From: Pontibacter sp. G13
GTDB taxonomy: Bacteria > Bacteroidota > Bacteroidia > J057
Direction: 5' to 3'
Assembly (NCBI RefSeq): GCF_031851795.1
Contig: NZ_CP134696.1
Span: 3,182,501-3,246,500 of the forward strand
DNA length: 64,000 nucleotides
Below the pieces are notes generated by a model. The model had not been told where the DNA came from, ran no database searches, and saw only the letters and a program-made list of their open reading frames with translations. A program made the position numbers and the translations under genes. Each line of letters starts with the position of its first letter. The stretch's first letter is position 1. Below are positions 3,728 to 38,122 of the stretch, one piece after another.

Positions 3728-5560
3728 ATGCCCGAACGCGAGATTTCCACTGCTATCCTGGTTGCTACCGCCAACAGCTACGGCGAGCCGGACCGTTTGG
3801 AAATTCTCCATCAGGAGATGGACGATATCGCGGGTATATTCGAGGCATCAGCCACCCCGTTGGGCGTAGAGGTGATCCTAGAATCTCCCTCGGAGGGAAT
3901 CTTTCTATTTGACCAATTTCGATCATTCAGCCATCGGCCAGGCTTGAGCATCCTGCATCTGGCAGGTTTTGCTTCGGAAAATCATGTCCAGATTGAAGGA
4001 GGGCTAGGTTCGGAGCCATTGACCCCGGAGACCTTTGCCTCCATGACGGCCAAGCTCCCCGATCTCAAGGTCCTGTTTCTCAACGGCAGCGCAACCAAGG
4101 ACTTGATCACGGCCTTTTTGCAACAGGATATTCCGGCAATTTTCGCGACACATGCGAAACAGGATCGAGCCTTGTTGGGAGAAATTGCCACACATTTCTA
4201 CCAGAGCCTCGCCAAAGGGAATACCATCCAGCAGGCTTGCCAGCATGTGCGCAGAAACTGTGGGGTAGCATTTCCGATTGTGGAAGTCAGCTATGATCTG
4301 GAACAGGATGAGTTCATTTGGTCCCACAACGATGCTGATCCACCCAACTGGGGGATCTATATTCTCAAGGACAATCTGCATCACCTAGATTGGCATCTGC
4401 CTATTTTCCCAGAAAAAGAGCCTGTACCTGAGCGAAAGAATTGGTTGCGCCCCTTGGCCAAGCCGATATTGGGAGGAATTGTGGTAAGTGCGCTCCTGAG
4501 CATGGCCTTGTACCTTTGGGTAGTCAATCCTCGAATCCTGCATGATTGGGGGCTTTTCCCTGATCCATGCACCTTCCAATCTCCGGATGACTACAACATT
4601 ATCCTCCTGCCCATTCACCGAGAATCGGACTGTATTGTCCAAGATGAGAAAATCAATCTAAGCGTCTATCGGCGACTGGACAGAATTCACGGCGATCAAG
4701 AAGTCATCCAGATCCCGTCTCAAAGATGCCCTGTAGATGTACCGCACGAAATCAGTGGGTATTTCAATGCATGTGGAGCTGACTTGATCCTATGGGGGAG
4801 CTATATGCCCGAAGGCGATCTGCACGAGTTGCAAGGCATCAAATTCATGTATGCCTACAGAGGTATTGCAGACTCGCTGAAATGGGGAAGTATCAAGCTG
4901 TGGATGGAGAAAAGCCTCTTTCTTCCAGAGAACGAGAAGTCCCTATCCGCGGTAGAAGACGTCCTGCATTGGGTCAAAAGTACGCAGTATTTCGAGCGAG
5001 GCTTGTACGAGGAGACCATTCAGGAATTGTCCTCGATGAGGCAAGTACGTTCCCGCATATTGTTGGAGATTCCCGAACGGCTCATCACTTGCTATTTGGC
5101 CGTGGAGGAATGGGAAAAGGCGATCCAACAGTATGATCAAATCCTCACCATCCCCGGATTGCGGGACAAACAGTATGCACTCGAACGAGGTATGCTGTTG
5201 CAACGTGTGGGCCGACATGCCGAGGCTGTTTTGGATTTTGATATGGTGCTGGATCGCGATCCGTCTCTATTGGAAGTCCGGTTGGCGAGGGCCAAAAGCC
5301 TCATGGCGACCAATCGTCCAGAAGCTGCCAAGGTCGATCTCAATTATGCTTTGGAGAAACAGCCTCGTAATGGTCAGACCCATCTGTTGATGGCTGCGCT
5401 TTTTGCTTCCAATCAACAACGGGACTCCATGATTCACTCCTTCCAACGTGCACTTGCATACGGCGCCAATCGCCAACAATTCAAGCCTTGGTCTCCCACA
5501 TTTCGCCCTTATGACCTTGATTCTGAGCTTCAGGAGCTCATCGGTCAGATGCAAGAATAA
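3728..5560 (+). CDS. Membrane pseudo-CHAT protein with C-terminal TPR region
   Basis: The 610-residue protein has a CHAT-like (caspase-HetF-associated) fold at residues 8-215, one membrane helix at about 247-266, a middle region with four Cys (about 280-390), and TPR-like helical repeats from about 420 to the end. The catalytic pair is missing: LHLAGF81 stands where LHFTGH81 stands in the next gene, and LNGS121 where that protein has LSGC121. Arg/Lys before the helix suggest a cytoplasmic CHAT part and a periplasmic tail. It may act as a scaffold or regulator of the intact CHAT protein downstream. The family assignment is strong from the paralogue; the role is inference. Confidence 0.8.
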   Translation: MPEREISTAILVATANSYGEPDRLEILHQEMDDIAGIFEASATPLGVEVILESPSEGIFLFDQFRSFSHRPGLSILHLAGFASENHVQIEGGLGSEPLTPETFASMTAKLPDLKVLFLNGSATKDLITAFLQQDIPAIFATHAKQDRALLGEIATHFYQSLAKGNTIQQACQHVRRNCGVAFPIVEVSYDLEQDEFIWSHNDADPPNWGIYILKDNLHHLDWHLPIFPEKEPVPERKNWLRPLAKPILGGIVVSALLSMALYLWVVNPRILHDWGLFPDPCTFQSPDDYNIILLPIHRESDCIVQDEKINLSVYRRLDRIHGDQEVIQIPSQRCPVDVPHEISGYFNACGADLILWGSYMPEGDLHELQGIKFMYAYRGIADSLKWGSIKLWMEKSLFLPENEKSLSAVEDVLHWVKSTQYFERGLYEETIQELSSMRQVRSRILLEIPERLITCYLAVEEWEKAIQQYDQILTIPGLRDKQYALERGMLLQRVGRHAEAVLDFDMVLDRDPSLLEVRLARAKSLMATNRPEAAKVDLNYALEKQPRNGQTHLLMAALFASNQQRDSMIHSFQRALAYGANRQQFKPWSPTFRPYDLDSELQELIGQMQE

Positions 5561-5730
5561 CCGCCAATTCTTACATGTCGATAATTTCACCATTCCCTTC
5601 TGAGGGAGGAATTATTCAAGTTTGGGCAAAAAAACCATTGACCATTTACGCGATCCTTTTGACCGATCATTCCTTTTCACGTATAGCCTTTCACAAAAAG
5701 ACGTTACTTCAGATTGTTGCATTTGACTAA

Positions 5731-5746
5731 ATACCCATTTGGGTAT
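5731..5746. promoter_or_regulatory. Candidate operator palindrome before the CHAT protease gene
   Basis: ATACCCA-TT-TGGGTAT is a perfect 7-bp inverted repeat with a 2-nt spacer, ending 40 bp before the start of the CHAT gene. The size and position suit a dimeric repressor site. No regulator gene is adjacent, so the role is a guess. Confidence 0.3.
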
Positions 5747-5786
5747 ACATTCAAATTCATCCGTTCTTACTTGTAATCCTATTCCT

Positions 5787-6623
5787 ATGTTGGCATCATC
5801 GCGTGTGCCTGTTGTATTTCTTGCTTGCGTAAACAGTTACCGGCATGGAAAGCGGCTCAGGTACTTGGTACATGAGCGCAAGTCCATCGCCAAGATTCTT
5901 CAATTCGATCCAAACGCACCGCTTTACGAGCCCATCCAAAAGGGCAATCTTGCTAACCAGGTTTTCTTCAAATTACTCAACAAGCGGACTCATGCATCTC
6001 GAGTGACCGGCCTACACTTCACGGGCCACTGGGATGCACATCAGTTCAAACTGGAGTCGGACGAACTCGAGACCCCGATTACCCTCAAGGCACTTTCTGA
6101 CCTGATCGGGCAGCTCCCCAACCTCAAATGGGTATTTCTCAGTGGGTGTGCCAATCCGGCACTGGTGGAATTATTGTTGGCACGAGATGTACCAGCAGTC
6201 ATTGTCACCCAATCCAACGAGAAGGACCCTGCATGTCGGGCCATCGCCCAAACCTTTTATCAGCACCTCGCTCAAGGGCGGAGTATCATGGATGCATTCG
6301 ACAAGGTCGCCAGCATCCATCCTGAAATGCTCCCCATCTCGGCGCAATACGATGTGGAAGACAACACCTTCGATTGGATTGGAAAAACAGGCATGTTCAG
6401 CGACATGAAAATGCCTTGGGGCCTTTACTATCTCCCCGCCAATCAAGACCGGTTGTTGAAACCCGTAGAAACCCGCAGGATCATTCCGTTTCCTGTCCGC
6501 AATCCCAAAAGCAACGGTTGGCGGACAAGCGTATGGGCCAACGGACTTCAATGGGCAGCAGGCGTATTGGCTTTGGGCCTCCTTGCTGCTGGCATAACCA
6601 TGTTCCTCTATCCACCTTTTTGA
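5787..6623 (+). CDS. CHAT-domain protease-like protein, tail-anchored
   Basis: The 278-residue protein is almost all CHAT domain (residues 6-220) followed by a C-terminal membrane helix (about 254-274). The caspase-type dyad is present: H81 in LHFTGH and C121 in FLSGC. CHAT peptidases are cysteine proteases found in regulated cell-death and defence systems such as those with TPR or nucleotide-sensing partners. The ATG at 5787 is preferred to an in-frame ATG at 5739 because it starts just before the first beta strand and aligns residue by residue with the upstream paralogue (H81/F81, C121/S121). The short hydrophobic tail predicts anchoring with the protease in the cytoplasm. Confidence 0.85.
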   Translation: MLASSRVPVVFLACVNSYRHGKRLRYLVHERKSIAKILQFDPNAPLYEPIQKGNLANQVFFKLLNKRTHASRVTGLHFTGHWDAHQFKLESDELETPITLKALSDLIGQLPNLKWVFLSGCANPALVELLLARDVPAVIVTQSNEKDPACRAIAQTFYQHLAQGRSIMDAFDKVASIHPEMLPISAQYDVEDNTFDWIGKTGMFSDMKMPWGLYYLPANQDRLLKPVETRRIIPFPVRNPKSNGWRTSVWANGLQWAAGVLALGLLAAGITMFLYPPF

Positions 6624-7062: not shown

Positions 7063-9993
7063 ATGAGAATTTTGCAGATCCTCTCGATTTGCCTGTTATA
7101 CTACCTGACCGGATTTCCCCCTGTCTTTGCACAACAGATTAATCCAGATGATATCAACGCCGCTTTTGACCTGCGGGCCAACATGCACAAGCGGGCACTG
7201 GCAGATCAAGATCTCAACCGACAACTCCGCTCGCTCATAGAGCTTGGGTATTGGGAAGAAGCTGCTGATCTGATTCAGAATCACGACCAACCTCCCCAAA
7301 TTGCGGAATCTCTCGTCCTCTGGGACCTTCGAAACAATCGGTACCAACAGGCACAAACGCGCGTTTCAGCGCACCTAGGCCAAGAAGCGGACTCCAAAAT
7401 ATGGAACCTGTACCAGGTCGAATTGGATATCGCCAAATGGGACCTCCCACATGCCAAAAGTCTCAGCGAACAATTGCTCAAACGCTACCCCGAAGACCCC
7501 GAAGTGGGCTATCAATTGGGGCAGGTGTTGATCATGAGCAAATCATACGAGGACGCGTTGGCACTAGCGAAACGCATGCAAGGCTGGGAAAATCCCAATG
7601 GCAATGCTTGGTTGCTCGAATCCGACGCACACTTTTGGATGCAACATCCGGCAGAGGCGCTGGAGGCACTGACGACCAGCCTGAAAATGAATCCACTTGA
7701 TGCAGATGCTCGATTTGCCTACGGGTATGCGATATGGAGAGAGGTTGATGCCAGCAAGCTTCCTGACATGGCTCGTCAATGGGAACTCGCCTTGGCATTG
7801 CATCCCCTGCACTATCGAACGCATTGGCACTGGGGAAATGGCCATACCCATCTGACCTTTTCCGACTATGCCGATCCGGAGGAATACGCCATCCGAAATG
7901 CATTGATTCCCGCGGAGGAGATGATGTCCCTGAACGACATGGCAGAAGCTCGGAACTGGATCAAGAAAGTTTCTCAGACCTATCCCAATTCCGTGATTCC
8001 AGATTTGTATCTGGGGTCTGCATGGTATCTAGATGAAGAGCCCAACCGAGCTGCGAATCTCGATTCCGCAGAAAGGATCTTTGAGAAAATACTCATCCAA
8101 AAACCCCACTATGGTCCCGCTCACAATGGGTTGGCAGCGGTGATCAAAGCCAAAAGGTTTCCATTTTTGATGGCTTATGATTCGTTGGAGGAAGCCATTG
8201 CCCAAACGGTCATCACAGACAAAGAGAGTTTCCATCAGGTATTCCCAGATGCGGCATGGTATCCGGGCGATCGGGTCGAACACATGATCTGGAATCAGCT
8301 CTACACCTCGGTGGCCTACTTCCCAATGTTGGCCAAGTTGGATCGAACCTTTGTGATTCCGCCCCTTCATCGAGATTTGGCGATCAGCATGGACAATCTT
8401 TACTTTCGAGGTGCCACCACCTTTGACAATCGTCAGTGGATGGATATCCGAGGCGTGGGAAGTGGCGCTACGGGAATCGAATACGTTGAGCGAGGAGCCC
8501 ACCTAGAGCGTAATGTCACCTGCCACGAGTATGTTCACCTATTCCACAGCATGTTGCTTTCGGATGAGGAAGCACGAGCCGTCAGGGCACATTATTTCCA
8601 TGCCATGGAGAAAGGTCTGACATTGGATTACTATTCTGCCAATAATGAATTTGAATATTTCGCGCAGACCTATCCGGCCTATTTCATTCGCCAAAAGGCC
8701 CATCCCCTCAATCACAAATCTCTGAACGTTCGAAGCGATCTAGCAGAAAAAGATCCAGAGATGTTCAACTTCATTGACCGACTCGTCGCCAAACAAAGTG
8801 CCGCGCTGGCGGGAGATTCCACCGCACTGGCTGACAATTGGTCACAAATCTATGTACGCCTTGCCCGCCAAGAATTGGTGATGTCCAATTTCGAGGAAGC
8901 TCAGGCATACTTGGATACCGCGCTCTCATGGAAGCCCGACTACCTCCCAGCCCTCCTGACTACAGCGGATCTCCATATCCAATCTGGAAATTGGGACATG
9001 GCGCTGGAATGGATCGAGGAGGCCAAACGACTAGATCAGGACTACGCGCCCATATATCTCAAAATGGCCGCACTGGCAGAGGCTCAAGGGAAAGCGGAAA
9101 AACTCCCGGAAAATGATATTCGAAAAGATGTTGCCCGATACTACCGCATGGCTGCTGATCGCGAAACCGATTTGCAGGAATTGAGCATGATCAACCAACA
9201 GTATCGTCAGTTGCTCAAAGAGCAAGGCCAGTTTGAGGAGGCGGTAGAAACCGCAATTTCCTATGGCAAACAGGCTCCGACCATCTCCACGTATCTGCGA
9301 GACCAACGAGATCAAGCGCTTGCATTTGGGTATGAGATCTTGGGCACCATAGGGCAATCAGCACCTTCTTTGGAGTATTTTCAGGCATTGGTCACACGCA
9401 AACCTCAGGTATTCAGGCATCGTGAACAATATGCCCGAGTGTTGGCGGCCAATGGTCAATATGAAGCTGCCATCCTCACCCTCAGTGAAGCACAAGAGAT
9501 CCTTGCAGCATCGGGTCGCCCTAGTCAGACCTTCATGGGGTTATGCGCCACTTATGCATTGGCGCAGGGAGATACTTCTGCGGCAAAAGAATTTATCAAA
9601 CCCGTTTCCCTCGACCTCGGCGCTCCCTCTGGAGACCCCTTGCTGTGGGTGAGATTGATGATTCAGATGGGAGAACTAAATACTGCCGAGCAATTGCTGG
9701 GTCAGGCTCCTCCATCAAATTCTGTCATCAGGCAAGCCGATTCCTTGTACACAGCAAGCCTTTTAGCAGCAGCAACGGGACAAAACCAGCAAGCGATTGT
9801 GGGATTGCGGAAAACGATCTCGATCCACCCTTATCACTTGGAGGCGCGACTGGAACTAGCACAACTCCTGCTCGAATCCGGAGACGCCGAATCGGCATCT
9901 ATTGCCGCCCTTGAAGGAACTCTGTTGCCGATGCAGCCCGGTGCTATCTGGATGGAAAGATTTCAGGCATTCATCCCCCAGCAGGATCGATGA
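7063..9993 (+). CDS. Exported TPR protein with gluzincin-type metallopeptidase motif
   Basis: The 976-residue protein has a Sec signal peptide (cleavage near VFA-QQ, residue 24) and TPR-like helical repeats on both sides of a central peptidase-like segment. H488-E-Y-V-H492 is a zinc-binding HExxH, and NEFEYFAQTYPAYF about 36 residues later supplies an acidic third ligand (E529 or E531); the EYFAQ form is like the E-x-FA motif of lethal-factor-like peptidases. The protein should be periplasmic or surface-exposed. It follows the two CHAT genes on the same strand but after a terminator and 439 bp, so it is a neighbour rather than a proven operon member. Substrate unknown. Confidence 0.8.
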   Translation: MRILQILSICLLYYLTGFPPVFAQQINPDDINAAFDLRANMHKRALADQDLNRQLRSLIELGYWEEAADLIQNHDQPPQIAESLVLWDLRNNRYQQAQTRVSAHLGQEADSKIWNLYQVELDIAKWDLPHAKSLSEQLLKRYPEDPEVGYQLGQVLIMSKSYEDALALAKRMQGWENPNGNAWLLESDAHFWMQHPAEALEALTTSLKMNPLDADARFAYGYAIWREVDASKLPDMARQWELALALHPLHYRTHWHWGNGHTHLTFSDYADPEEYAIRNALIPAEEMMSLNDMAEARNWIKKVSQTYPNSVIPDLYLGSAWYLDEEPNRAANLDSAERIFEKILIQKPHYGPAHNGLAAVIKAKRFPFLMAYDSLEEAIAQTVITDKESFHQVFPDAAWYPGDRVEHMIWNQLYTSVAYFPMLAKLDRTFVIPPLHRDLAISMDNLYFRGATTFDNRQWMDIRGVGSGATGIEYVERGAHLERNVTCHEYVHLFHSMLLSDEEARAVRAHYFHAMEKGLTLDYYSANNEFEYFAQTYPAYFIRQKAHPLNHKSLNVRSDLAEKDPEMFNFIDRLVAKQSAALAGDSTALADNWSQIYVRLARQELVMSNFEEAQAYLDTALSWKPDYLPALLTTADLHIQSGNWDMALEWIEEAKRLDQDYAPIYLKMAALAEAQGKAEKLPENDIRKDVARYYRMAADRETDLQELSMINQQYRQLLKEQGQFEEAVETAISYGKQAPTISTYLRDQRDQALAFGYEILGTIGQSAPSLEYFQALVTRKPQVFRHREQYARVLAANGQYEAAILTLSEAQEILAASGRPSQTFMGLCATYALAQGDTSAAKEFIKPVSLDLGAPSGDPLLWVRLMIQMGELNTAEQLLGQAPPSNSVIRQADSLYTASLLAAATGQNQQAIVGLRKTISIHPYHLEARLELAQLLLESGDAESASIAALEGTLLPMQPGAIWMERFQAFIPQQDR

Positions 9994-28278: not shown

Positions 28279-31200
28279 TTAATGTTCTGGTTTCGGCGGA
28301 ATGCTCAGATAGAAGGTCGCCCCTTGACCAAGTTGGGAAATGACCCAAATATTACCTCCTTGGAGCTCTACTGCTTTTTTGACAATAGAAAGCCCCACAC
28401 CCGAACCGTAGCTAGCCTTGCCTTCATGCAGTCGATGGAACACTTCAAAAATGTGCTCCAGTTGCTTCGGATCCATCCCTACGCCATTGTCTTTGATGAA
28501 TAAGATGAGGTCATCTTTGTTCTGCTCCTTGTAGGTTCCGATCTCCACCCGGCAATTGTTCCCGAGTCGATGCTTGAGTGCATTGGAGAGTAAGTTGTGC
28601 AGGATCTTCCTCATCATCACCAAATCTGCCCATACAGGTGAAAGATCTCTGAATATCAATTCGGCATCCGCCTCTGGATGCGTTGCAATCAATTCAGCCC
28701 ATACCTCCTCGATCAATACTTTGAGATCCAACCACTCCTTGTGAACCTTGGAGATTTTCAGGTTGGAGTAGGTGATCAGCCCATCGAGCGTTTGGTTCAT
28801 TTTGTTGAGCTGAATTTGCAGGGCAGAGAATGCAGATTCATCAAATTCTGCTTCTCGGGAAATCTTGTCGGTGATTCGATCCGCGCGACGTAACTCATTC
28901 CGGAGATCTTCTGCGAATGATTGGGAGATGTACCGATTTTCTTCCTGCGTTTCTTCGAAGGCCTTCTTGGCCATTTCAAGCTGAGCCAATTCCAATGCCT
29001 CTTGAGCCTCTGCATGTTGCCCGTTGCCATTTTTCACAGGAAATGCCAACGTACCAATCTGGGGAGATCCATCAGACCCGACAATTGGGTATTTGACGAC
29101 ATTGAGGGTAATCTGCTTGCCACCGAGATTAAAGGATTCAAAGGTATGTAGCTCTTTAGCTTCTGCGAGGACCTGCTGATCTTCTTCTCTGATTTTGACG
29201 GCATCTGCTTCAGGAAGCAACGCAAAATCGCTCGCACCAATCATCCCTTGCACATTGGTTTCGAGTAATTTCTGGTAGGACTGATTGGCGTATACGTACT
29301 TGAAATCTTGATTTTTAATCGAGGTATAAATTTCCGGCTGATCAAGGATCTGCTGGTAAAAAGTAAAGGTTTCCAGAGATTCCGCAGGAATGAATCGCTC
29401 CTGCTGGATATTCTGGCTCACCATCAAGATTTCTGTAGAAGATTGGCTGCTGTTGTGTCGAGGAATGAAGGTATGGCGATACATGGTCTCCTTGGAATCC
29501 AACCAAGGAGATTCAATCTTCATTTTGGTGTGATAGTCTGCGCGGGATACCTGTGCCAATGCATTCTTGGCCAGTCCCTTGTAGGGTTCATCCAAGTAGT
29601 CCAGGAAGTTGCTATGCAAAACTACTTCTTTCTGGTGCTGGGCTCCTGACTGATTGATATAGATGATCTTGCCATCCGGTTCCAGCACAGAAATGAAGAA
29701 AGGAATCTCATCGAGGATCTGATGCTGATTATTCAATGCCTTGTGCAGTGCGCTCTCGGCCAAGACCCGCTTGGAGATATCGATGATGGAGATAATCGCG
29801 CCACCGATGTCCTTGCGTTTGTGGATGAATGGATTGATCCGAACCAGCCAGTGCTGGGCTTTTCGGTTGCCTTTGATCTCGCGTTCTTTTTGAATGCCTT
29901 GATCCATCACCTCAATGACATCCTCTTGAAAATGAGGATAGTCCCACTTCAGCCTGAACTTTTCGATAGAGGTTCCGAGGTCTCGGTCAGTCAAATCAAT
30001 CACCTCTGAAATCTGAGGGGTGAAGAACTTGATATGAAGGCGATTATCGAGGAACAAGGTGCCGATCTGCGATCCCATCAACAAGTTGTCAATGGTGGAG
30101 TTCGCATCCAGCAGTTCCTGATTTCTTGCCTGCAACTCCGAGTTGACTGTGTACAACTCTTCATTGACAGACTGTAGTTCTTCGTTGGTACTTTGCAACT
30201 CTTCATTGGCTGCAAGCAATTCTTCGTTGGAGGCCTGAAGCTCCTCATTGGTGGTCTCCAATTCCTCCAAGGAGTTTTGCACCTCTTCCTTGGCGAGTAC
30301 CAATTCTTTCTGGAGATCCCGGATAATGGAGTAGGACTCAGAGTCCAGCGAAGGTCCTTGGATAATGGTTTTGCGCTCCTCCAGATCGGCCTTATTTGGC
30401 TCGATCCATTGAATGAGATAGAGATTCTGATCCGACATGGAATCAATGCGCTCCACCGAGATATCCCGAAGCATTTCGGGATGATTGTCCGAAACAGGAA
30501 CGTCCGGATACAGAAAAGGCCCAGATTCTTGGGTAAATCTCCTCAGGCTATCTCGAAGGACCAACACGGTAGGCCGTGAAACCATGCTCAAAAGGTCTCC
30601 TTTGAGTTCCATATCAGGAAGATGGAGAAATTGGCCAGCACCCCCCGTGAGATAAAGGAGTAGAAAATGATCGTCGATCAAAACCGAAACTGGCGCAAAT
30701 CGATCCAACAGGATTTTGGGGTAGGATACACGCGCATTTCGGTAAGTAACCTGATCCAATTTGTTGAGCATGGATGCGCTAGGCAATCCCGAAGTCCTTC
30801 GGACTTTGCTCATCTGGGCGAGGTTGTAGTATTTTCTTGCCTTAGGAGTCTCTCCATGCGCTTGGAATACTTTCCACTTTTCGTCCAAAGCGGTAAAGCT
30901 ATGCTTGTAGTCGAGGACATTCTCACTAGAGCCCAACCACAAGAATCCACCGGGTTTAAGTCCAAAATGGAAATTGAGCAACAATCTACGTTGGATAGGA
31001 GAATCCAAATAGATCAGGAGGTTTCGGCAGATCACGAAATCCAGATTGATGAATGGAGGGTCCATCGTTGCATCGTTCCGAGCAAAAATGATTTTGTCTC
31101 GGTAGAATCCGCGGATCTCATATTGTCCTTCATCAAAATGGAAATATTTATTTCGGATTTCCTCGGGGATATGGGCAAGGCTTGAAGCAGGGTATACTCC

Positions 31201-32289
31201 TTTACTCGCAATGGCTAGAGCCTTGTCATTGATGTCGGTTGCGAGAATGGTGTATTTGGGGGAAATGTTGTGCTTGTTGGCGTACTCATTCAGCGCAATG
31301 CTGATCGAATACACCTCTTCGCCGGTCGAGCATCCGCAAATCCAAACCCTCAAGTCCTGATGACCAGCATCTGCTTTCATCAAGTTTGGGAATACAATCT
31401 CTTCCAATGCATCGTATGCGAGGGGATCTCGGAAGAAGTCTGTCACCCCGATAAGGAGCTCATAGTACAGTTCCTCTACCCGAGAAATCTGCTGGACGAG
31501 ATATTCATAGTATTTGGTGAAGCTCGTGATATTGAGCATCGCCATATGCTTTTCGATCCTTCTCCGGATGGTCTTAGGCTTGTAGAGGGTGAAGTCCACT
31601 TGATGGTACTTCTGCACAAGCCGGAGAATCGGCACAAATTCCAGCTGAAACAGCTTGTCCTCATCCGAGATTTCAGACAGATTTTTCTCCTGACGGAATG
31701 TCTCTATGCCTACTTCCCCAATTTGGGCCAATACTTTGGAAATCTCCTCTGGGGTCAATACCATATCTACTGATTTGGTATCGATCGAGCTGATGGGCAT
31801 TCCATCAAATTCTGCGCTTTCGGGGTGCTGTACGATGACGAGTCCACCCTGATCCTTGACCGTTTGGATGCCTCTTGATCCATCTGAGCCCGTACCTGAG
31901 AGAATGACCGCGATCGATTTATCTTGGGCATTGTCACCCAATGAATGCAGAAATTCGTCAATCACGAATCTTGGGCCTGCACTTTCGGGCAGCTCTTCCA
32001 ACCGGATTTTGCGCTCATCCAAAGTCAATGAAGAACCCGCGGGAATCAAATACACATGATCCGGCTGAATCTCCATGTCTTCCTCAGCCATGACAATGGG
32101 CATCCCGGAGTCCTTGGATAGGATCTCCTGCATCAAGCTTTTAAACTTACGGGGAAGGTGCTGAATGATAATGAAAGACATGCCCGTATAGCTGGGCAAA
32201 TATGCAAGCAGCTCCTCAATGGCTTTCAGACCACCAGCTGATGCTCCGATGCCGACAATGGGAAAGTCGGCCTTTTGAGAATGCGACAT
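28279..32289 (-). CDS. CheB-CheR-PAS-histidine-kinase fusion lacking the phospho-accepting His (paralogue A)
   Basis: The 1336-residue protein has a CheB methylesterase domain (8-195; S18, H44, D136 intact), a CheR methyltransferase (about 215-490; [13 protein letters not shown]), a heptad coiled coil (about 665-735), three PAS-like domains (about 735-1100) and a kinase core. The ATP-binding part is complete ([27 protein letters not shown]), but the H-box reads FAEDLRNEL, with Glu at 1127 where paralogue B has His1127. It is cytoplasmic, without membrane helices. The ATG at 32289 is used; the frame above only offers TTG. It lies 114 bp after BLUF on the same strand, so the two are probably cotranscribed. 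Confidence 0.92.
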
Positions 32290-32403
32290 GATGTTGAGGT
32301 GTTGGAGTAGATGTGAATTCAAGGGAATTTAGCCAAGAATATGCAAGCATAAAAATAAATATACAGCCAAATAATTCCCAATAACGAATGTTTTTATCGC
32401 CAG

Positions 32404-34084: not shown

Positions 34085-37000
34085 TCAGCTAAAATTGAGG
34101 GTAGAGGATTTCGTGGGGAACTCAAGGAAGAATTCAGCATATTCCCCCAACACAGAACTGGCCCGTACTTGCCCTCCAAGCCGTTCCATGGACTTTTTGA
34201 CGATGGAAAGCCCAATACCTGAACCTTCCACATTTCGTGCTTCGTGCAATCGCTCAAAAACCTGAAATATTCGTTCGCCATCTTTGAGGTCAAACCCGAT
34301 TCCATTGTCGCGGCAGAAATACGTGATTCGACCAGGATGGTCTTGATAGGCGCCAAACTCCACCTCGCACGGCCTATCGGGGTGTTGATATTTGATAGCA
34401 TTGCCAAACAGGTTGGAGATGATTTGCTTGACCAGCATAAGGTCCGTCCAGACCGGTGGGCAATCTCGGATAATCAGCTTGGGAGCCGGCTCCTCTTGAA
34501 AGCCTTTCAAATCCTCCCAGATTTCAAGCGCCACCAATTTCATGTCGATCCATTCCTTCCGCACATCGATTCCTCCCAATTTCACATAGGACAACAGTCC
34601 ATCCAGAATCTGTCCCATCCGATGAGACTGCCTCAATAGGCTATCCAGATACGATTTATTTTCATCCCCCAACTGATCCTGGATATTGAATTCCAGCAGT
34701 TCTCCATAGGTGTGAATTGCTCGGAGTGGCGCTCTCAAATCGTGCGCCATAGATCTTGTAATCGTCCTCAATTCTGCATTGGTGGCCATCCAAGATTCTG
34801 TACGCTCATCGATCAGGCGCTGCAATTCCTGTTGCACCTCATCTGGATTCACATCATCGATTTCCTGATCAGGCTGAATGATTGAAATTTGGGCGACCCG
34901 ATGACCTCCATTTGGATCTTCAATCGGAAATTTCAGGGTCATTCCCTTGGTTTGCTCATCTTGCCGATTGTAGTATTCCATGATCACCTGCTCCTGAAAT
35001 TCTTGAAGCACCCGCTCGTCATTCTTCCGGAGTTGAGAGGCGACATCTTGGCTGAAGAGGGCAAAATCATTGATCCCTGAGATCATTTCCTGAGGTTTGT
35101 TGAGCAGATTGGCAAAGCCCTTGTTGGCAAACACATAGGAATACTCCTCATCCTTCACACTGACGATCAGCTTGGGGTTTCTCAAAATCTGTTTGAGAAT
35201 CTGGAACTGCTCGTATTCGGAAGCCTGGATGATCTTTTCTTCAGAAATATTGAGGCAGGCGACCAATACTTCTGTGGAAGGTTGATGATTTTGGGAAATG
35301 GGGACCAAAATCATTTGATACCTGCTGAATGATTGGTCGTCAAAGGAGAGTTCAATCTCAAAAGATTGAGAATGCTGTTGGTCGAGAATATGTCTGAACT
35401 GGGCCTGTGTATAAGCCCGATGGCTCGGAGAGACTAGATCAAAGAGCGATTGCCCCAAAATGATGCCCTCTGCCTGATCCGAGGCCATTCGGTTGGAGTA
35501 TCGGATAACTCCTTCGGCATCTGCAATCGTGATGATAAAAGGCACAAAGTCAAGCACCAGTCGCTGTTGGGCCTCTACTCGTTTCAATTGAGATTCGGCT
35601 TCCTTCTGATCGGTGATGTCCATCAGGTTGATCACGACCCCGTCCATTTTCCGATTGCTCATAAATGGCTGCATAGTCAACCGAAAATTCCGTTTGGGAG
35701 CGCCTCCCTCGATTTCTCTTTCAATCCGCTTTCCAGAAATCAAAATTTCATTGAGATCCTTGAAGAAAGAAGGATACTTCCAATTGATCTGAAATTTCTG
35801 AATGCCATTGCCGATATCCGACTCATTCAATTGGATAATTTCAGAAAACAAAGGCGTGTACAGCTTGATTCGTAGCTCTTTATCCAAAAACAACGTCCCA
35901 AAAACCGAAGTCCCCAGCAAATTGTCAATGGTGGAATTGGCTTCTGTGAGTTCTCGGTTTCGGGATTGAAGCTCTGCATTGACTGTGTAGAGTTCCTCAT
36001 TGACAGATTGGAGCTCCTCATTGGTACTTTGAAGCTCCTCATTTGCGGCGAGCAATTCCTCATTGGAAGCCTGTAATTCTTCATTACTGGTCTCAAGCTC
36101 CTCCAAATTGGTCTGGATTTCCTGCCTCGCCATGCCCAACTCATTATGCAGATCCTGAATAATGGCGTAGGCATCAGAGTCCTCCACACGCGAATCGATC
36201 TGCAAGACCGAAGTTGGGGTCGCATCGTCTTCCGTTATAGAAAGCCACTCAACCACGTAAATCGGATAGTGAGGATCAAAGTCAATTTGATCCACCCTAA
36301 CATCCATGATTTGCGGATCAGCGGATTCATCTGATTGACTAATCCCTGTATACTGGAGGGCCCCACTTTCTTCGGCAATGCGTGACACCGCATCCCGAAG
36401 GATCAGCCCCATAGCTTTGGAAGTCATGCTCAGCAAATCCTGATGAAGATCCATATCGGGCATCCTCAAGTAACGCCCTGCTCCACCGGAGAGAAACAGC
36501 AGATTAAATTCACGGTCAAATAGCGCACAGGTCGGTGCGTATTTATCTATAAGGAGTTTCCCAAAGGAAAATTTACTGCGTTGATATTGAGTAGTTGGGG
36601 TCTGAAAGGCGACTTGGCTCGTAGCAGATGCCCCTTTTTGGATTTGTCGTCTGAAGGATCGTTTAAGATCGAAAATTTTGCGGGATTTGGGCGTCTCGCC
36701 TTTGGATTGGAAGATTTTCCACTTTTCGGACACCGAAGCAAAATGGGTCCTGAGATCCAGTATATTTTCACTTGGTCCTAGCCAGAGGATTCCATCTTTT
36801 TTCAGGCCAAAATGGAAATTCAGCAAGATCCGCTCCTGGACAGCCGGCTCAATGTAGATCAGCATATTTCTACAGCTGATCAGATCGAGATTGATAAAAG
36901 GAGGATCTGCAGTGGCGTCATTTCGGGCAAAGATAATGTTGTCACGGACAAACGACCGAATCTGATACTGCTTGCCATCGAATTCGAAATAACGCTCTAG

Positions 37001-38122
37001 AAGATTGGTCGGAAAACTCTTCAAATAATTCGGTGAATACGATCCGCGACTAGCGTGAGCCAATGCCTGCTCGTTCACATCTGTTGCCAAAATCGTAAAT
37101 CGGGGAGCCTTGTTGTGCGCAATGACGAACTCGTGTAGCTGAATCGCCAAAGAGTACACTTCTTCCCCTGTGGAGCAACCACAGACCCAAATCCTCAAAT
37201 CTTCTGCGGACCGATCATCCAACAATAGTTGAGGGAACGCGAGTTTGGATAATTCCTCATAAGCTCCCTTGTCTCTGAAAAACTCGGTCACCCCAATCAG
37301 CAAGTCTCGATACAGGTTCTCCAACACGACGGGATTCTCAGACAGCATCAAATAGTAGGATTCATACTCATGATGTCCATGGAGACTCATGTGCTTTTCG
37401 ATCCTTCTGAGAACGGTGTTGGATTTGTACAGGGTGAAATCTACGCTGTGGTGTTTTTGGATCAGTCTCAGTACGTGGATCAGCTCTGGGTTGTGGGGAA
37501 TGGAAGATTCTTCCCTTTTCAATTCTTCCTGAATCCGACCGGGTGCCAACTGCGCCAGCTGAGATAGCTTTTCCGCAATTCCCTTGGGGGGCAGGATGTA
37601 ATCCACGATTCTCGTATCGATGGCACTGCGTGGCATACCGTCGAATTCTCCCGAGTTGGGGTCCTGAGCAAAAACAATCCCTCCATGGTTTTTCACATTC
37701 AGAATTCCCCGAGACCCATCGGAACCTGTTCCTGACAAAATCACCGCAATCGCCTGATCGCCCAAGTCTTGGGCCAACGAATCGAGCAAAGTGTCCACCA
37801 CAAAATGGCTCGCTCGATCTATGGGAATGGGTTCCAAATATAAGACCCGCTGTTGAATCGTCAATTCGTAGGCAGGCGGAATGAGATAGATATGATCTGG
37901 TTCCACATGCATACCGTGCTCGGCAAGCTTCACCGTCATGCGGGTATCTTTGGCAAGAATTTCTTGCATGAGGCTTTTGAATCGTCGAGAGAGGTGCTGG
38001 ACGATGATATATGCCATTCCAGTATTGGGAGGCAGATTGATCAAAAGCTCTTCAATGGCCTTCAATCCGCCAGCGGAGGCTCCAATGCCAACGATCGGAA
38101 AAGGGGTGGGTTCAGCGGCCAT
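34085..38122 (-). CDS. CheB-CheR-PAS-histidine kinase fusion (paralogue B)
   Basis: The 1345-residue protein has CheB (5-195; S17, H43, D135), CheR (about 215-490; [13 protein letters not shown]), a coiled coil with repeated NEELQ heptads (about 670-745), PAS domains (about 745-1100) and a complete kinase core with H1127 in MAHDLRAPLRA, NLFGNAIKY, DNGIGFD and GSGIGLSIVKK. It is cytoplasmic. CheB/CheR modules remove and add methyl groups on chemoreceptors; fused forms of this kind are often not next to chemoreceptor genes, and none is seen here. It follows a stand-alone receiver gene on the same strand. Confidence 0.94.
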   Translation of the reverse strand: MAAEPTPFPIVGIGASAGGLKAIEELLINLPPNTGMAYIIVQHLSRRFKSLMQEILAKDTRMTVKLAEHGMHVEPDHIYLIPPAYELTIQQRVLYLEPIPIDRASHFVVDTLLDSLAQDLGDQAIAVILSGTGSDGSRGILNVKNHGGIVFAQDPNSGEFDGMPRSAIDTRIVDYILPPKGIAEKLSQLAQLAPGRIQEELKREESSIPHNPELIHVLRLIQKHHSVDFTLYKSNTVLRRIEKHMSLHGHHEYESYYLMLSENPVVLENLYRDLLIGVTEFFRDKGAYEELSKLAFPQLLLDDRSAEDLRIWVCGCSTGEEVYSLAIQLHEFVIAHNKAPRFTILATDVNEQALAHASRGSYSPNYLKSFPTNLLERYFEFDGKQYQIRSFVRDNIIFARNDATADPPFINLDLISCRNMLIYIEPAVQERILLNFHFGLKKDGILWLGPSENILDLRTHFASVSEKWKIFQSKGETPKSRKIFDLKRSFRRQIQKGASATSQVAFQTPTTQYQRSKFSFGKLLIDKYAPTCALFDREFNLLFLSGGAGRYLRMPDMDLHQDLLSMTSKAMGLILRDAVSRIAEESGALQYTGISQSDESADPQIMDVRVDQIDFDPHYPIYVVEWLSITEDDATPTSVLQIDSRVEDSDAYAIIQDLHNELGMARQEIQTNLEELETSNEELQASNEELLAANEELQSTNEELQSVNEELYTVNAELQSRNRELTEANSTIDNLLGTSVFGTLFLDKELRIKLYTPLFSEIIQLNESDIGNGIQKFQINWKYPSFFKDLNEILISGKRIEREIEGGAPKRNFRLTMQPFMSNRKMDGVVINLMDITDQKEAESQLKRVEAQQRLVLDFVPFIITIADAEGVIRYSNRMASDQAEGIILGQSLFDLVSPSHRAYTQAQFRHILDQQHSQSFEIELSFDDQSFSRYQMILVPISQNHQPSTEVLVACLNISEEKIIQASEYEQFQILKQILRNPKLIVSVKDEEYSYVFANKGFANLLNKPQEMISGINDFALFSQDVASQLRKNDERVLQEFQEQVIMEYYNRQDEQTKGMTLKFPIEDPNGGHRVAQISIIQPDQEIDDVNPDEVQQELQRLIDERTESWMATNAELRTITRSMAHDLRAPLRAIHTYGELLEFNIQDQLGDENKSYLDSLLRQSHRMGQILDGLLSYVKLGGIDVRKEWIDMKLVALEIWEDLKGFQEEPAPKLIIRDCPPVWTDLMLVKQIISNLFGNAIKYQHPDRPCEVEFGAYQDHPGRITYFCRDNGIGFDLKDGERIFQVFERLHEARNVEGSGIGLSIVKKSMERLGGQVRASSVLGEYAEFFLEFPTKSSTLNFS

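Follow-up and report, generated by a model that had tools for sequence, protein, structure and literature searches.

Known CHAT proteases include enzymes linked to CRISPR systems and, in cyanobacteria, HetF. The subject here is a pair of adjacent genes in Pontibacter sp. G13, found in a stretch of 64,000 nucleotides (contig NZ_CP134696.1, positions 3,182,501 to 3,246,500; 'the window' below means this whole stretch). The first gene encodes P0001, a large protein of 610 amino acids (aa) at 3728..5560 on the plus strand, and the second P0002, of 278 aa, at 5787..6623 on the same strand. The two are proposed, with a probability of about 0.42, to constitute a membrane-bound signalling pair in which P0001, a receptor with a dead CHAT domain, steers P0002, a live CHAT protease.

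The closest published layout found is that of HetF from Anabaena, where a CHAT part (aa 1-555), one predicted transmembrane (TM) segment and TPRs follow in the order given by a figure legend (PMC8406250), and where an active-site mutation is reported to abolish function (PMC8406250). P0001 has the same CHAT-TM-TPR order as the HetF family, a likeness drawn from description and not from sequence. HetF, as described there, needs its active site and P0001 has none; P0001 is therefore HetF-like in layout and is not filed as a HetF. P0001 moreover has a TolB-N-like domain between the TM segment and the TPRs, a possible further difference from HetF.

Of solved CHAT proteins, SAVED-CHAT (PDB 8tl0) is the closest to this set both by sequence and by fold, and it is not known to have a TM segment or a periplasmic sensor. 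It is described with a SAVED domain (PMC11417357) and, unlike P0001, has intact GHG and NAC motifs. The Craspase TPR-CHAT protein (Csx29) resembles P0001 in having CHAT and TPR in one chain, but it is described with a CRISPR partner, with the TPR part ahead of CHAT, and with a dyad, H585/C627, that closes on activation (PMC9729208). CadC-type receptors share with P0001 a cytosolic output, one TM segment and a periplasmic sensor; CadC itself has a known periplasmic disulfide (PMC3096576). Foldseek matches P0001 to the periplasmic domain of CadC (3ly8; rank 45, E 2.4e-5), a loose likeness with a root-mean-square deviation (rmsd) of 19.2 over 310 columns, and the CadC output is DNA-binding where P0001 has a CHAT fold. 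With a cytosolic output, one TM segment, and an alpha/beta domain and helical repeats in the predicted periplasmic part, P0001 is laid out as a one-component membrane receptor.

A dead protease domain in the role of regulator has its animal case in cFLIP. Among bacterial proteins, pseudo-orthocaspases carry Y/S in place of H/C, so that, as in P0001, His has given way to an aromatic residue and Cys to Ser within a caspase-like fold; they are p20 proteins found mainly in Alphaproteobacteria and Cyanobacteria, with 10 of 1078 Bacteroidetes sequences being pseudo forms (PMC6426788). In contrast, the fold here is CHAT, the replacements vary widely, and the loss accompanies one periplasmic domain. 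Inactive caspase domains are also described as effectors of MoxR-vWA conflict systems, with decoy or dominant-negative roles proposed (PMC7159879), and cFLIP is named as a protein whose caspase domain is inactive (PMC8195603). The dead domain of P0001 differs in being the cytosolic end of an envelope receptor, and no MoxR-vWA pair was seen in the neighbouring genes covered. Pseudo-orthocaspases and the conflict-system domains, to the extent that these sources describe them, may be taken as a general precedent for dead protease domains as regulators. No inactive CHAT, CHAT with TolB or CHAT in Saprospirales is described in the titles and abstract openings covered, where subscription journals are mostly missing.

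The two CHAT proteins

The initial annotation had placed Phe and Ser in P0001 exactly where P0002 has His and Cys, and the blastp alignment bears this out. Both frames are open over their full spans. Residue 81 is F in P0001 (SILHLAGFASENHVQ, codon 3968..3970) and H in P0002 (TGLHFTGHWDAHQFK, codon 6027..6029); residue 121 is S in P0001 (KVLFLNGSATKDLIT, codon 4088..4090) and C in P0002 (KWVFLSGCANPALVE, codon 6147..6149). The common numbering reflects merely a near gap-free alignment up to these points. The two proteins are 28% identical over ~212 columns, and as the E value is 8e-23, the homology is real and not a chance match; with the dyad reading, it upholds the idea of a dead CHAT beside an intact paralogue. 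Are columns 81 and 121 the catalytic ones? Alignment to a known CHAT protein indicates that they are, as the annotation had supposed: a 15-row CHAT profile, with P0001 and P0002 included, aligns to 8tl0 (E 1e-13), and the GH of the profile falls on the GHG motif and its GC on the NAC motif. The Pfam CHAT model (PF12770) remained below its cut-off of 24 for both proteins (23.5 bits for P0002, 12.2 for P0001), and the P0002 frame with neighbouring stretches reached 24.4 bits in a whole-genome Pfam search. Homology to known CHAT proteins and the CHAT fold are found in both, by the profile match to 8tl0 and, for P0001, by its model; the His-Cys dyad of an active CHAT peptidase is present in P0002 and absent from P0001.

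The P0001 chain consists of a pseudo-CHAT domain, a TM segment, a periplasmic TolB-N-like domain and TPRs, as read from the open reading frame, Pfam and a structural model. The full-length model has a mean predicted local distance difference test (pLDDT) score of 87.6, with block means mostly of 80-96. The N-terminal CHAT fold without the dyad residues (aa 1-223, 3728..4396) is recognized by the profile and by the model, which matches 8tl0 with Z 17.6 (196 residues within 2-226, rmsd 3.1). By this Z score, the dead CHAT retains its fold in the model. There is one strongly hydrophobic segment, the sole TM segment (aa 247-265, 4466..4522), with five Lys and Arg in the 18 residues on its N-terminal side and one on its C-terminal side. 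The periplasmic domain (aa 278-451, 4559..5080) includes Cys302 and Cys334, and TPR repeats, found by Pfam and in the model, make up the C-terminal part (5081..5557). P0002 has a CHAT domain followed by a hydrophobic C-terminal anchor (aa 256-274, 6552..6608) and a four-residue tail, and judged from its residues it is probably a tail-anchored, working CHAT protease.

The charge bias around the membrane segment is found also in relatives. In 15 related proteins, the flanks of up to 18 residues hold 62 Lys and Arg before the TM segment and 17 after it, a contrast inflated by C-terminal sides shorter than 18 residues in most tail-anchored proteins; the N-terminal side is richer in 13 of the 15, the exceptions being the G011 fragment and G001_597. 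The predicted orientation is therefore N-in, C-out. The annotation's view that both proteins are membrane-anchored agrees with these predictions, which give one hydrophobic segment to each, and its periplasmic TPR tail on the dead copy agrees with Pfam, the model and the predicted topology. As modelled, P0001 reads as a single-pass receptor with a cytosolic CHAT, one TM segment, and a periplasmic domain with TPRs.

FlgT, TolB and PelC are envelope proteins. The model of the P0001 periplasmic domain (pLDDT 85.4) matches all three in Foldseek with probability 1.00 and E of about 1e-4 to 1e-3, but with TM-scores by query of only 0.36-0.50. It reaches Z 10.0 to FlgT (131 residues) and to the TolB N-terminus (116 residues), and unrelated tRNA synthetase anticodon-binding domains also reach Z 8. 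What the model points to is a likeness of fold to TolB-N, FlgT and PelC, with no homology or function claimed.

An intrinsic-terminator-like stem of 10 pairs with a T run, found by consensus match, lies 3' of P0002 (6654..6689, plus strand). The terminator scan gave seven sites against 4.0 expected, which makes this site weak evidence, and it listed none between the two genes. The pattern fits co-transcription and is no proof of it.

Dyad states in relatives

The family of the window is represented by 13 genomes, most of them drafts in which an absence may be a gap. Full-length orthologues of P0001 are present in G005, G007 and G010; G011 and G012 have contig-cut fragments without the dyad region, the G011 gene being interrupted by the contig end before CHAT. 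In a tree of 84 CHAT domains, the four big proteins and a tail-less protein of 275 aa from G006 (G006_275) form one clade (99/86) and seven small proteins another (98/97). Both are within one 13-row group with G001_597 (94/83), drawn open.

Dyad states can be read in five CHAT domains of the big clade: F/S in the window, F/C in G005, Y/C in G007, F/C in G010 and I/F in G006_275. His is lost in all five and Cys121 is kept in three. The annotation's point-for-point loss of the dyad, taken as a conserved trait, thus does not hold, as F/S is found in the window alone and the four sisters differ from it. In the small clade the dyad is H/C in five of seven (G000, which is the genome of the window, G005, G010 copy B, G011 and G012), with E/C in G010 copy A and P/C in G006; a small copy with the dyad, as the annotation describes it, is thus seen in the five and not in these two. 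Loss of His is common to the big clade and loss of Cys is not; judged by sequence, most small copies are live, but some are not.

Two loci are of interest in their own right. In G006 (L051:3170-4949) both members of the syntenic pair are dead (I/F and P/C), and the first of them has no periplasmic tail. In G010 (L045:3909-5857) two small CHAT genes are in tandem, with H/C in one and E/C in the other; they make up another pair of dead and live neighbours, which arose within the small clade.

Could P0001 simply be a decaying copy, with a CHAT part that has no selected function? Cys121 is lost in the window and kept in three sisters, G006_275 has lost both residues together with the sensor tail, and the clade's four other CHAT domains share only 24-34% identity with that of the window, all of which decay would produce. 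But the frames of the big protein are fully open, at 610-630 aa, in four genera; ten positions (H77, G80, P111, G120, D134, P136, Y158, G164, W211 and G212) are conserved in the big and the small clade, each with no more than one exception in either; the periplasmic Cys pair is kept in 17 of 20 domains; and the model gives a confident CHAT fold. Decay is very improbable on this evidence.

Dyad loss and the periplasmic domain

A wider survey of the 13 genomes drew on what the 15-row CHAT profile matched there and on loci that previous searches had found. It has 88 proteins and an extension of 21 weaker ones, and both columns are readable in 101 of the 109; four of the 88 and four of the 21 were dropped for an unreadable His or Cys column. 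A contig-edge match (G002:C238) yielded no row, and four extension proteins (L223, L227, L230 and L235) were scored H/C from two partial matches each. The survey covers the P0001/P0002 branch of CHAT and nearer kin in one family; the classical CHAT protein of the same genome, L001 (193 bits to Pfam), is outside the count.

The dyad is intact in 1 of 16 CHAT proteins that carry the periplasmic domain and in 66 of 75 that have neither this domain nor a short tail anchor (Fisher p 3e-10, uncorrected for kinship). The 16 are made up of an initial 13, L067 and two extension proteins (P/S and D/N). Short tail-anchored proteins have an intact dyad in five of ten cases; the ten comprise the seven of the small clade, G006_275, and one protein each from G005 (K/L) and G008 (D/T). 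Lost dyads accompanied by the periplasmic domain are F/S, F/C twice, Y/C, T/C, T/M, M/M, D/A, E/G twice, E/A, E/I, Q/V, P/S and D/N. The nine lost dyads among the other proteins are S/C three times, G/C, R/C, T/C, D/T, V/N and G/N, with the contig-cut D/T protein L178 placed here though it may be a cut receptor.

The one intact member is in G001 (L067:1480-2871). It has the CHAT-TM-periplasmic layout with H/C, is contig-cut, lacks the periplasmic Cys pair and lies outside the big clade. A first count with a 6-row periplasmic profile gave 0 of 13 and the statement that no intact relative has this layout; a 17-row profile detects L067 (E 4e-11), which rules the statement out. By its sequence, L067 shows that a live dyad can go with this layout, and it suggests, without proof, that a live HetF-like form preceded the dead ones. 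The annotation had allowed that an intact relative would make the residues of P0001 a recent error. Loss of His in all five CHAT domains of the clade means that the loss is not a recent error, and this part stands; an intact relative of the same layout nevertheless exists, outside the clade.

Other candidate correlates were rejected. The periplasmic Cys pair seemed invariant, at 17 of 17 in alignment A6 (which is without the G011 fragment), but is present in 17 of 20 overall. It is missing in L067, L236 and the G011 fragment, the dyad of the last being unseen, and since L236 and the G011 fragment also lack the pair, it does not track the dyad. Nor is dyad loss a matter of membrane anchoring alone: 11 CHAT rows longer than 320 aa have a predicted hydrophobic segment, lack the periplasmic domain and are all H/C; several of these segments are borderline, and the clearest are in L158, L159, L173 and the 1605-aa protein of L174. 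Among the proteins surveyed, no single chain was seen to combine a live with a dead CHAT; double matches were split single domains or chance stretches.

Some of the live proteins have other architectures. Three of these 11 are nSTAND1 proteins that have an N-terminal CHAT match with H/C (L158:2760-6287, L156:3075-7214 and L174:5917-10731), and Pfam assigns FGE or beta-propeller repeats to their C-terminal parts. In G000, a CHAT-Ser/Thr kinase fusion (L054:1982-3637) has PD-T4-6 models as its best PADLOC matches. H/C CHAT proteins of similar length recur in the family, and L064, the one checked, also matches PD-T4-6 models.

How widespread are these proteins? Of 395 genomes sampled from the class, the small profile (E <= 1e-35) matched six, all of the family of the window, and in G001 and G007 the gene matched is of another type than the small one. 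The periplasmic domain (E <= 1e-8) was found in 1 of 395 sampled genomes of the phylum, that of the window itself, in a sample that evidently has few or no other genomes of this family and says little on them. Within the family it is carried by 8 of 13 genomes. At 17 named loci, CHAT matches outside three already-surveyed genomes were all H/C and without the periplasmic domain. Dead CHAT receptors, as predicted from these genes, appear common among the examined genomes of the family.

A proposed signalling pair

Across the 13 genomes, both genes are present in six, the big gene only in one (G007), the small gene only in none, and neither in six, where the big genes include G006_275 and the G011 and G012 fragments (Fisher p 0.005 by genome, 0.033 by genus). 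In G000, G005, G011 and G006 the big gene comes first and adjoins the small one on the same strand, with gaps of about 120-230 bp. The annotation's description of the genes as neighbours stands for these four of the six genomes with both, and fails for G010 and apparently G012, where they are apart, and for G007, where the big gene is alone.

The proposal that P0001 steers P0002 starts from domain layout, dyad states, predicted topology, co-occurrence and class-wide dyad loss, which are read from sequence or model. A CHAT domain without its dyad presumably cannot cut, so the output of P0001 should be contact. Because of gene linkage and co-occurrence, P0002 is the nearest partner, and hence the proposal of CHAT-CHAT contact at the inner membrane. 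The TolB-N-like domain and TPRs of P0001 would face the envelope, one helix would span the inner membrane, and the cytosolic CHAT, a caspase/separase-like fold that has lost its catalytic His, would serve as a protein-contact module. P0002 would be tethered to the inner face of the same membrane by its C-terminal helix. An envelope signal would alter the state of P0001, whose dead CHAT would contact the CHAT of P0002 and switch its activity, and P0002 would then cleave a cytosolic or membrane substrate. We infer the contact and its direction (activation or restraint), together with the activity of P0002, the signal and the substrate.

Several observations weigh against this proposal. With Cys121 retained in three of five big-clade domains, selection against catalysis is unproven. 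The big gene and the nearest small gene are ~25 kb apart in G010; in G012 each is on a contig of its own, with a gene other than the small one following the big one; and no small-type gene was found in G007 among matches at E <= 1e-20. In G006, with I/F and P/C, neither neighbour is live, so the locus can do without a live partner; together with G007 this means that the pair model cannot be universal. The link between dyad loss and the periplasmic domain is strong in the number of proteins and weak in the number of evolutionary events: the tree contrasts number two independent ones on well-supported branches and five on the best tree, labelled as before the recognition of L067 and the extension proteins, and a sign test on them is not significant.

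The dead CHAT receptor might instead act without the small neighbour, as a general docking domain, with adjacency a remnant of tandem duplication. The big and small proteins form neighbouring clades, as a tandem duplication would leave, and the lone big gene of G007 and the separated genes of G010 also fit. Four other dead-CHAT receptors (1230, 1136, 2375 and 1548 aa) have no second CHAT within the 8-13.5 kb fetched, the 597- and 1183-aa receptors of G001 adjoin only each other and are both dead, and the genomes have many non-anchored live CHAT proteins. Such docking does not explain, however, why all six genomes with the small gene have a big-clade gene too, or why order and strand are identical in all four adjacent cases. 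Docking is a possible but somewhat less likely alternative to the signalling pair.

Neighbouring genes

The annotation had pointed to CHAT proteases of defence and cell-death systems and had seen in the pair a possible membrane-bound system that senses the state of the envelope. CHAT proteases do act in CRISPR-linked Craspase (PMC9729208) and SAVED-CHAT (PMC11417357), as these papers describe them, and an anti-phage or abortive-infection device would be in line with that. But neither P0001 nor P0002 has a PADLOC match at E <= 0.01 (0 families), and the neighbours examined (RadC, an M1 peptidase, a TPR protein, GSCFA, RmuC, Tex and an acyl-CoA dehydrogenase) are of housekeeping type and do not form a defence island. 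The radC-M1 peptidase setting of the window recurs in G006, and M1 alone in G007, which fits vertical inheritance. A defence role is accordingly not upheld and is judged very improbable.

Other genes near the loci may be mentioned. Extracytoplasmic function (ECF) sigma factor genes adjoin the small gene in G005 (L042:2742-3308) and lie two genes from the big one in G010 (L044:1836-2543); a search with the G010 seed alone found no further ECF genes among the fetched open reading frames. The next sizeable gene after the pair in the window (7063-9993) encodes a large TPR protein with an HEYVH stretch and a metallopeptidase-type match that is sub-cut-off only. Two similar minus-strand frames of 1345-1347 aa (28279-32322 and 34085-38122) resemble CheB-CheR-PAS-histidine kinase hybrids when their translations are read by eye.

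Significance

P0001 and its relatives are best classed as CHAT membrane proteins of HetF-like layout that have become pseudo-protease receptors; their tail-anchored companion is live in most cases, judged by its dyad. They represent a receptor class in which nearly every member seen is without the protease dyad and retains the fold. A broader scheme, in which envelope receptors of this Bacteroidota lineage have dead CHAT outputs and share a tail-anchored live CHAT as downstream enzyme under cFLIP-like control, is speculative and rather unlikely; if true, envelope receptors with dead CHAT would constitute a membrane counterpart of pseudo-caspase control such as that by cFLIP. The locus offers a testable pair and a clear comparison set, including one relative of the same layout with an intact dyad (L067). 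A receptor class of this kind would mean that bacteria relay signals across the envelope by way of dead caspase-like domains.

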